The notes below the pieces were generated by a model that saw only the letters and a list, made by a program, of their open reading frames with translations, ran no database searches and was not told the DNA's origin. A stretch of DNA of 64,000 nucleotides from Pseudomonas peradeniyensis (GTDB taxonomy: Bacteria > Pseudomonadota > Gammaproteobacteria > Pseudomonadales > Pseudomonadaceae), in assembly GCF_014268935.2 (NCBI RefSeq), contig NZ_JABWRJ020000002.1, positions 922,001-986,000 of the forward strand, read 5' to 3'. Of this stretch, positions 37,553-39,094 are shown in pieces. Positions within the stretch are counted from its first letter, which is position 1, and each line of letters starts with the position of its first letter. The position numbers and the translations under genes are program-made.

Positions 37553-37670
37553 CTGCGCAAGGCCGCGAGGCCCTTCCTGGTGGGGGACAAGGCGCCTAGT
37601 GTGCCAAGGCTTGGCTCGGCTGCAAATGATCAAGCCCGGCCGAAGCCGGGCTGGTTGCGCACATCAGCGA

Positions 37671-37997
37671 TCAGCTGATGCGGTGGCCGTTGGTGCGGTC
37701 GAAGCCATCTTCGGCGAAGCGTTGGCCGCCGGTGCGATCAAAGCCGTCTTCGGCGAAGCGTTGGCCGCCGGTGCGATCGAAGCCGTCCTCTGCGAAGCGT
37801 TGGCCGCCGGTGCGGTCGAAGCCGTCTTCTGCGAAGCGCTGGCCGCCGGTACGATCAAAGCCATCTTCTGCGTAGGTGGCCGACTGGCTCTGCACGGCAG
37901 CGAAGGTGTGGGCGCCGGTACGATCGAAGCCGTCTTCGGCAAAGGCACCAGTGGTCAGAACAGAGAGGGCGAGGGTGAGGATCAGTTTGTTTTTCAT
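37671..37997 (-). CDS. Secreted protein made of EDGFDRT tandem repeats
   Basis: A 108-residue exported protein. A clean signal peptide (MKNKLILTLALSVLTTGAFA, cleavage after residue 20) is followed by six EDGFDRT units: a first longer one (23 residues, to QSQSATYA), four identical 13-mers EDGFDRTGGQRFA, and a last EDGFDRTNGHRIS. The mature part thus has almost no sequence outside the repeats and is rich in Asp, Gly, Arg and Phe. ATG 37997 has GGAG nine bases upstream. I recall similar pseudomonad proteins carrying loose labels such as phage infection protein, but no function is established. Confidence 0.8.
   Translation of the reverse strand: MKNKLILTLALSVLTTGAFAEDGFDRTGAHTFAAVQSQSATYAEDGFDRTGGQRFAEDGFDRTGGQRFAEDGFDRTGGQRFAEDGFDRTGGQRFAEDGFDRTNGHRIS
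37675..37880. repeat. 39-bp coding tandem repeats
   Basis: Five near-identical 39-bp units that encode the 13-residue repeats, with the plus-strand core GCCGCCGGTGCGATC(A/G)AAGCC. Third-base differences between copies show they are not all freshly duplicated, while the protein repeat is kept exact. Confidence 0.85.
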
Positions 37998-38341
37998 GGT
38001 CGTTGCTCCGGTGAGTTGCCAGGGGTTGTTGTTTCTATGGGTTCAATGCTACGCCTATAAAATCGATAAAAAAGCGCAAAAAATAGCGCATAAGAATCTG
38101 TTTATTCGATTGTTAAGGGTGCGGCTACCCCTGGCTTGCAGTGGGCATCGCGTGTGGCGTGCAGCACGACCGCCAATGATTTTTCCAGTTCGACAAAGAT
38201 GAAAGGCGGAAATTAATGGGGAGTTAAGGGCACGCGAGCCTGGGGATTAAGCAATCAACGGATTTTTCATACGGCTCAAACCGATTTTTCAGGCTTCGCT
38301 CGCCACCATCGCCGCACTTGAACCCCTGGAGCGGCACACCC
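37998..38341. other. Intergenic region between the repeat protein and the DUF347 gene
   Basis: About 340 bases between divergent genes. 38050-38115 is very AT-rich (ATAAAATCGATAAAAAAGCG) and likely holds the repeat-protein promoter on the minus strand. A minus-strand TTATAG is a possible -10. I see no gene and no strong hairpin. Confidence 0.5.
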
Positions 38342-39094
38342 ATGAACAAACTCCCGCAAATCACCTTGGCCTTCTGGGTCATGAAGATCTGCGCCACCAC
38401 CCTCGGCGAGACGGCCGGCGACCTGCTGTCGATGACCCTGGACATCGGCTACGCCATGAGTTCGCTGTTGCTTATCAGCGTGTTCCTGGTGACCCTGGTC
38501 AGCCAGCTCTACTCGCGCCGTTACCACCCGATGCTGTACTGGCTGGTGATCCTCTCCACCAGTACCGCCGGTACCACCATGTCCGACTTCATGGACCGGA
38601 CCCTGGGCCTGGGCTACGCCATGGGCTCGGCACTGCTGATAGGCATTCTCATGCTGACCTTTGCCCTGTGGCGCCTGAGCGGCAACCCGCTGGACGTCAG
38701 CCGCATCCGCAATCGTGGTGGCGAGCTGTTCTATTGGGTAGCGATCCTGTTCTCCAACACCCTGGGCACCGCCCTGGGCGATTACCTGGCCGATGATTCC
38801 GGCCTGGGCTTCGCTGGTGGCGCGCTGCTGATCGGCTCGGCGATCGCGCTGGTGGCCGCAGCCCGCTACTGGACGAAGATCTCGGGCGTCGTGCTGTTCT
38901 GGATCGCCTTCGTCCTCACCCGTCCGTTCGGTGCCACGCTGGGCGACGTGCTGACCAAGTCACACGAGAAAGGCGGACTGGACTTCGGCACAGTGGGCTC
39001 ATCGCTGGTGCTTGGCGGCGTGCTGCTGGTACTGGTGCTGATGGCCACCTATTACCAGCGTCGCGAGCCGCAGCGGGTGGCCGAGCTGTCGTAA
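38342..39094 (+). CDS. Four-repeat integral membrane protein (DUF347/COG4705)
   Basis: A 250-residue inner-membrane protein with about eight helices built from four internal repeats. Each repeat carries a T/S-x-G-x-x-x-[GS]-D motif: TTLGETAGDLL, TAGTTMSDFMDRT, NTLGTALGDYLADD and PFGATLGDVLTK. The conserved Asp in each repeat, placed in or near the membrane, suggests ion or metal transport, but the family is uncharacterised as far as I know. ATG 38342 is preceded by CTGGAG. Confidence 0.8.
   Translation: MNKLPQITLAFWVMKICATTLGETAGDLLSMTLDIGYAMSSLLLISVFLVTLVSQLYSRRYHPMLYWLVILSTSTAGTTMSDFMDRTLGLGYAMGSALLIGILMLTFALWRLSGNPLDVSRIRNRGGELFYWVAILFSNTLGTALGDYLADDSGLGFAGGALLIGSAIALVAAARYWTKISGVVLFWIAFVLTRPFGATLGDVLTKSHEKGGLDFGTVGSSLVLGGVLLVLVLMATYYQRREPQRVAELS

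Follow-up and report, generated by a model that had tools for sequence, protein, structure and literature searches.

A predicted exported EDGFDRT-repeat protein of Pseudomonas peradeniyensis and its multigene family with a shared LysR-type promoter design

A redox-sensing LysR circuit of Pseudomonas aeruginosa controls drug efflux and quorum sensing. In the accessible text of PMC3557286 (citing Tian 2009 and Fargier 2012), PA4881 is presented as a tandem repeat protein controlled by MexT, a redox-responsive LysR regulator. According to the same text, the LysR protein PA2206 binds the PA4881 promoter, and disc assays on PA4881 gave no increased H2O2 sensitivity. In the available part of PMC12607905, PA4881 heads the table of genes with lowered expression in a mexT mutant (log2 -6.5), and an excerpt of PMC10848761 names it among the genes raised with MexEF-OprN induction. 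The nod-box consensus is printed as ATYA(N7)YGAT (PMC11432991, partial text). A further described relative, PtrA (PA2808), is called a periplasmic copper storage protein in a review (PMC8872213, partial text), whereas its role is still unclear according to PMC7763554 (partial text).

The window analyzed here is a stretch of 64,000 nucleotides of Pseudomonas peradeniyensis (contig NZ_JABWRJ020000002.1, positions 922,001 to 986,000). The repeat gene is located on its minus strand (37671-37997, ATG at 37997, stop at 37671-37673), as are the protein segments, the promoter elements and the hairpin given below. Translation yields a protein of 108 residues composed, in order, of a predicted Sec signal peptide (residues 1-20, 37938-37997), a first EDGFDRT unit with a non-repeat linker, EDGFDRTGAHTFAAVQSQSATYA (residues 21-43, 37869-37937), four identical 13-residue units EDGFDRTGGQRFA (residues 44-95, 37713-37868), and a last, variant unit EDGFDRTNGHRIS (residues 96-108, 37674-37712). 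The signal peptide was assigned by eye; it has an AFA end followed by EDGFDRT, and is alike in orthologs and paralogs. An earlier sequence-only reading had proposed six EDGFDRT units after a signal peptide, four of them identical 13-mers, and the translation bears this out. The same reading took the mature protein to be built of repeats, which holds for the six units and not for the ~16 non-repeat residues after unit 1, nor exactly for the last unit, a variant ending in HRIS. The mature protein (88 residues, ~9.7 kDa, pI 4.6) has no Cys, Met, Lys, Leu, Trp or Pro, and contains two His residues.

Among the 22 tandem-repeat rows of the window, the 39-bp array ranks first, with a TRF score of 288 vs 61 for the runner-up. 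Comparison of the four identical units in six pairs gives 23 synonymous and no non-synonymous differences, confirming that the protein repeat is exact while the DNA copies vary. Two long open frames run antisense to the repeat on the plus strand (37678-37875 and 37599-38060); they are by-products of the 39-base period of the array.

Orthologs were collected by a scan of one genome per species, which gave 79 loci. Seventy-six of them (L006-L081) share the same start, and the set of 75 genes used below consists of the window gene and the 74 genes of L006-L081 whose stop lies inside the available DNA (L066 and L070 being truncated). Outside the ortholog set stand L082, which is a more distant relative, and L083 and L084, two loci at contig ends. 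The number of units, by motif count, ranges from 3 to 10 among the 75 orthologs, and no frameshift is found in any of the genes. The protein lengths are equal modulo 13 in 72 of the 75 cases, the exceptions being two proteins shorter by a single residue and a third that contains an N run. Units compared inside genes show pN of 0.018 vs pS of 0.335, and the unit identity is 0.966 within species vs 0.829 between species. On a quick 75-row tree of two neighbor genes, calculated without a shuffled control, at least 46 changes of unit number and at least 29 changes of the commonest unit type are counted. The array is thus remade often, always by whole units, and is kept uniform. Selection on the peptide, as proposed from the single sequence, is supported by the substitution values, the common length class and the intact frames, and the comparison among species reveals no free drift with frameshifts. 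A neutral or selfish DNA repeat, in frame by chance, would agree with the frequent changes of copy number and with the homogenized units, but it is contradicted by the substitution pattern as compared here (pN far below pS). The unbroken frames, the conservation of the promoter, ribosome-binding site and hairpin (described below), and the existence of family members with different unit sequences and the same plan also speak against it, making such an origin extremely improbable.

In respect to the fold, hmmsearch of PDB sequences with the repeat protein gives no match (best E 1.3). Two predicted models, with mean pLDDT of 49.4 and 41.8, contain the signal-peptide helix only, and Foldseek with the first of them (pLDDT 49.4) returns 0 matches, which, given the low confidence of the model, is weak evidence. 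The lack of a confident fold fits a flexible array, which it does not prove. An extracellular or cell-surface structural protein of adjustable length (matrix, adhesin or amyloid-like) would be in keeping with the repeat architecture, the export signal and the length changes by whole units. The protein, however, has no anchor or secretion domain apart from the signal peptide, no Pfam family scores above its cut-off, and both models are free of strands over the array, albeit with very low confidence; a structural role is thus considered unlikely.

The family is defined here by a signal peptide followed by units of ~13 residues with the motif A-E/A-D/G-G-x-D-R/K/H/N-T/L. The window protein shows both features, and its gene has the promoter design of the family (ATC-N9-GAT, 44 bases, TA(G/A)CAT; see below); we class it as one member of a Pseudomonas multigene family. 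At E<=0.001, the repeat protein has matches in 283 of the 298 Pseudomonas genomes scanned (the weakest included without individual check). A sample drawn from the whole order gave only 6 matching genomes out of 293 at E<=1e-5, and all six belong to the same genus or family. The P. peradeniyensis genome (5.9 Mb) encodes two array proteins, the window protein and that of L002 1297-1842 (with units such as VAEGGSDRLIQRNDR), along with single-unit PtrA-like proteins. Unit sequences in other members include EDGYDRTGGATVA, EDGYDNTRSATFA, EDGFDRTGANRVA, ADGADKVGANKLA, and EGGSDRLIERRVA. Pseudomonas comprises major pathogens, plant symbionts and industrial strains, and single genomes have up to 26 listed matches to the query (26 in G155, several of them per gene). 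On plasmids, one family copy is present (L373 3001-3336, on a 109-kb Pseudomonas asturiensis plasmid, annotated as hypothetical), in addition to one weak Fusobacterium match (E 0.09), and a phage collection searched with the repeat protein gave no match. Cys is absent from the mature part of all 106 paralogs and of 76 of the 77 orthologs. The C-termini of many members consist of a hydrophobic residue and Ser (VS in 29 and LS in 18 among 106 proteins).

In searches of open-access papers, no description of the exported repeat family as such came up, nor any paper with the repeat unit strings. From the gene order, the locus tags of the KT2440 ortholog may be PP_1395 to PP_1399, and the open-access papers searched yielded no mention of the repeat gene. 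The label "phage infection protein", considered for the family, could not be tied to it from the accessible part of PMC5557065, and a supposed link of the family to a P. aeruginosa VNTR marker led nowhere.

Eighteen bases after the stop, the hairpin AGCCCGGC-TTCG-GCCGGGCT, followed by TGATCATTT, forms a probable terminator (37633-37652) before the flavin reductase gene. A hairpin of at least six pairs is present after the stop in 73 of the 75 genes (one stem in the 25 rows printed), so the repeat gene is probably transcribed alone. An operon with the flavin reductase gene was considered, because the two genes stay neighbors (the repeat gene is found in 78 and the flavin reductase in 76 of the 79 loci), but this arrangement is made less probable by the conserved hairpin and by the repeat gene's own promoter. 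The other neighbors, under their Pfam names, are a transporter (75 of 79), an ABM monooxygenase (75), an AraC regulator (76), and a DUF347 protein (40), with the absences due in part to contig ends. In the window, the last of these is a divergent membrane protein of four DUF347 repeats (38342-39094), and the AraC gene may, from the gene order, correspond to Afr/PP_1395.

The boundary between units was analyzed with respect to processing. In the internal units of the orthologs, position 11 is R or K in 285 of 286 cases, position 12 is F in 283, and position 13 is A in 277. The sequence-only reading saw in the RFA boundary a possible processing site, and cuts at each RFA-E junction would indeed turn the exactly repeated unit, with its nearly fixed R/K-F-A boundary in the EDGFDRT orthologs, into copies of a short secreted peptide (a signal, an inhibitor or a nutrient-binding peptide). 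At the family level the proposal is unsupported, since the boundary residues of the paralogs differ (T-V-A, T-F-A, K-L-A, R-V-A, T-L-A), the basic residue not being kept, and the unit spacing varies. In 106 nod-box family proteins, the spacing is 13 (231 times), 14 (91 times), 15 (85 times), and a few other values, so the 13-residue spacing is not absolute. The single gene also has a promoter and a hairpin to itself, and among the scanned neighbors neither a protease nor an exporter gene was recognized. A peptide precursor is therefore regarded as rather improbable.

Alignment of 77 upstream sequences reveals an island of conservation before the gene. It contains a GGAG ribosome-binding site (38006-38009, each base in at least 76 of the 77 sequences), the hexamer TAGCAT (38046-38051), and the conserved TTTTTTGCGCTTTTTTATC (38065-38083), which covers the expected -35 region and extends upstream of it. 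TAGCAT is a probable -10 element, by its conservation and its fixed spacing to an ATC-N9-GAT dyad (T-N11-A; 38096-38110). This dyad, identified by the alignment and by pattern scans, is a LysR-type operator-like box placed 44 bases before TAGCAT. A consensus scan of the window listed neither a promoter nor a terminator at the repeat gene. The ATC-N9-GAT box is present in 75 of 77 EDGFDRT-type promoters and missing from two. Of the 75 EDGFDRT-type promoters with the box, 74 have a spacing of 44 from GAT to TA(G/A)CAT, as have 111 of 115 nod-box-type promoters. The composite pattern ATC-N9-GAT-N43-GTA(G/A)CAT is found twice in the P. peradeniyensis genome, before the window gene and before L002 (0 for the reversed-pattern control), and has 95 matches in 59 Pseudomonas genomes, with 0 for the control in each. 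Among the loci examined across the genus, 127 of 133 distinct composite-promoter places precede an exported family member; of the other six, one runs into a contig end and five are apparently unrelated. The composite pattern was built from these same promoters, and the nod-box pattern used below was picked after the promoter of one paralog had been seen. The matches at L002 and in the window are thus expected, and the scans are informative in that other places are nearly absent and separate branches agree.

Farther upstream, ~230-250 bases from the repeat gene, a TTAA-N7-TTAA direct repeat with an 11-base period is located at 38213-38227. It is present in 63 of 76 loci, whether or not these have the divergent DUF347 gene, and may be response-regulator-like.

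The nod-box search pattern was a slightly relaxed MexT consensus. In the P. peradeniyensis genome it has one exact match, before the paralog L002, whose promoter shows the same 44 spacing as that of the window gene and agrees with the printed consensus. The window box, ATCG-N7-AGAT, does not: ATC and GAT are kept, the fourth base is G, and Y is changed to A. Because of this departure, another LysR protein may read the window box. The relaxed pattern has 142 exact matches in 119 Pseudomonas genomes (0 for the reversed control in each). By script, 115 of them were located 79-87 bases upstream of an exported protein carrying one or more units, and two further boxes precede degenerate family members, as judged by eye. 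The remaining 25 are not found before family members: 12 precede a conserved small ORF containing VSFPVFG, two a luciferase-like oxidoreductase, and 11 other or unclear genes. The VSFPVFG ORF (L189, L195, L197, L199, L207, L219, L226, L239, L250, L256, L263 and L276) encodes 86-94 residues and has no name in NCBIfam. In a sister genus, 16 of 25 genomes have one nod box each, and only two of the 16 boxes precede an exported repeat protein, so the tie between the nod box and the repeat family is not universal. At two sister-genus loci (L297 and L301), the nod box stands 86-87 bases upstream of exported proteins whose repeat, VAENGSSQTVDRLHSQLG (unit AENGSSQ...), is longer and different; these proteins may be counterparts of PA4881.

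The N-terminal domain of the co-regulatory protein PtrA (NF041599 of NCBIfam, cut-off 31 bits) matches the paralog L002 with 72.4 bits and the EGGSDRLIERR member with 68.2 bits, both well above the cut-off, as the unit is present repeatedly. The window protein reaches 16.1-16.6 bits, below the cut-off, and two EDGY members give no match. A PtrA-like periplasmic buffer for copper or other metals, in which the acidic residues of the units would bind the ions, could explain the two paralog matches and the low pI of the mature protein, and would suit the copper storage role given to PtrA in the review. It has to be set against the sub-threshold score of the window protein, the lack of Cys and Met with only two His in the mature part, the unit charge, which the paralogs do not keep, and the unclear role of PtrA itself. 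Metal buffering is accordingly given a low probability.

The reading that we favor, with a probability of about 0.5, is that of an exported flexible motif array, produced under LysR control in redox, electrophile or envelope stress, and acting by multivalent binding in the envelope. Directly supported are the export signal (by sequence), the conservation of the units, the in-frame turnover of copy number, the breadth of the family, and the shared promoter design. The gene would be transcribed alone from a promoter with a LysR-type operator centered ~64 bases before the expected start and followed, after 44 bases, by TA(G/A)CAT. We propose that MexT or a similar LysR regulator controls the gene, with redox, electrophile or related envelope stress as the inducer. 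The product would be a Sec-exported, Cys-free and probably flexible protein displaying many copies of the motif A-E/A-D/G-G-x-D-R/K-T/L. It may act in the periplasm or at the surface, where the motif would bind an envelope partner multivalently, the copy number of the units setting the avidity. Membership in an envelope stress response is probable because the family sits behind one promoter design of the redox-sensing-LysR type, and multivalent display is favored because the spacing is variable, Cys is absent, a short motif is kept, and the copy number is adjustable. Points that weigh against this reading are the off-consensus box of the window gene, the 25 nod boxes that stand before other genes, the two of 16 boxes tied to repeat proteins in the sister genus, and the disc assays on PA4881 with their unchanged H2O2 sensitivity.

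A wider proposal, possible and clearly tentative, is a dedicated LysR-controlled stress regulon of Pseudomonas with valency-tunable exported disordered arrays as its main output, in which the unit number, changing fast by recombination, would tune the avidity for one envelope target, and PtrA would be the single-unit form of the module. If true, a LysR regulon with tunable motif arrays would represent a new class of envelope-stress effector. The exported repeat family has no assigned function, and the shared promoter links its members to a redox-sensing LysR circuit; PA4881, the top MexT-dependent gene, and PtrA, a copper-tolerance protein, may on this view be parts of a single module.

In comparison with the known systems, PtrA resembles the family in having a signal peptide followed by AE(G/D)G-x-(D/E)R, whereas the PtrA-like proteins of the P. 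peradeniyensis genome (L085 and L086) have one unit and no array, and no shared promoter of the ATC-N9-GAT type was noticed upstream of them. The MexT nod-box regulon has in common with the window gene an ATC-N9-GAT operator ~64 bases before the expected start, and its exact box is present before L002, while the box of the window gene is off the consensus at two positions. PA4881, compared by its published description, is like the family in being a tandem repeat protein under LysR control, and the EDGFDRT branch differs from it, as described, by a variant operator and a strict 13-residue unit. Since PA4881 has already been called a MexT-controlled tandem repeat protein, the EDGFDRT protein would be a branch of a sparsely described kind, and what is new here is the regulatory result, namely one promoter design common to the family.
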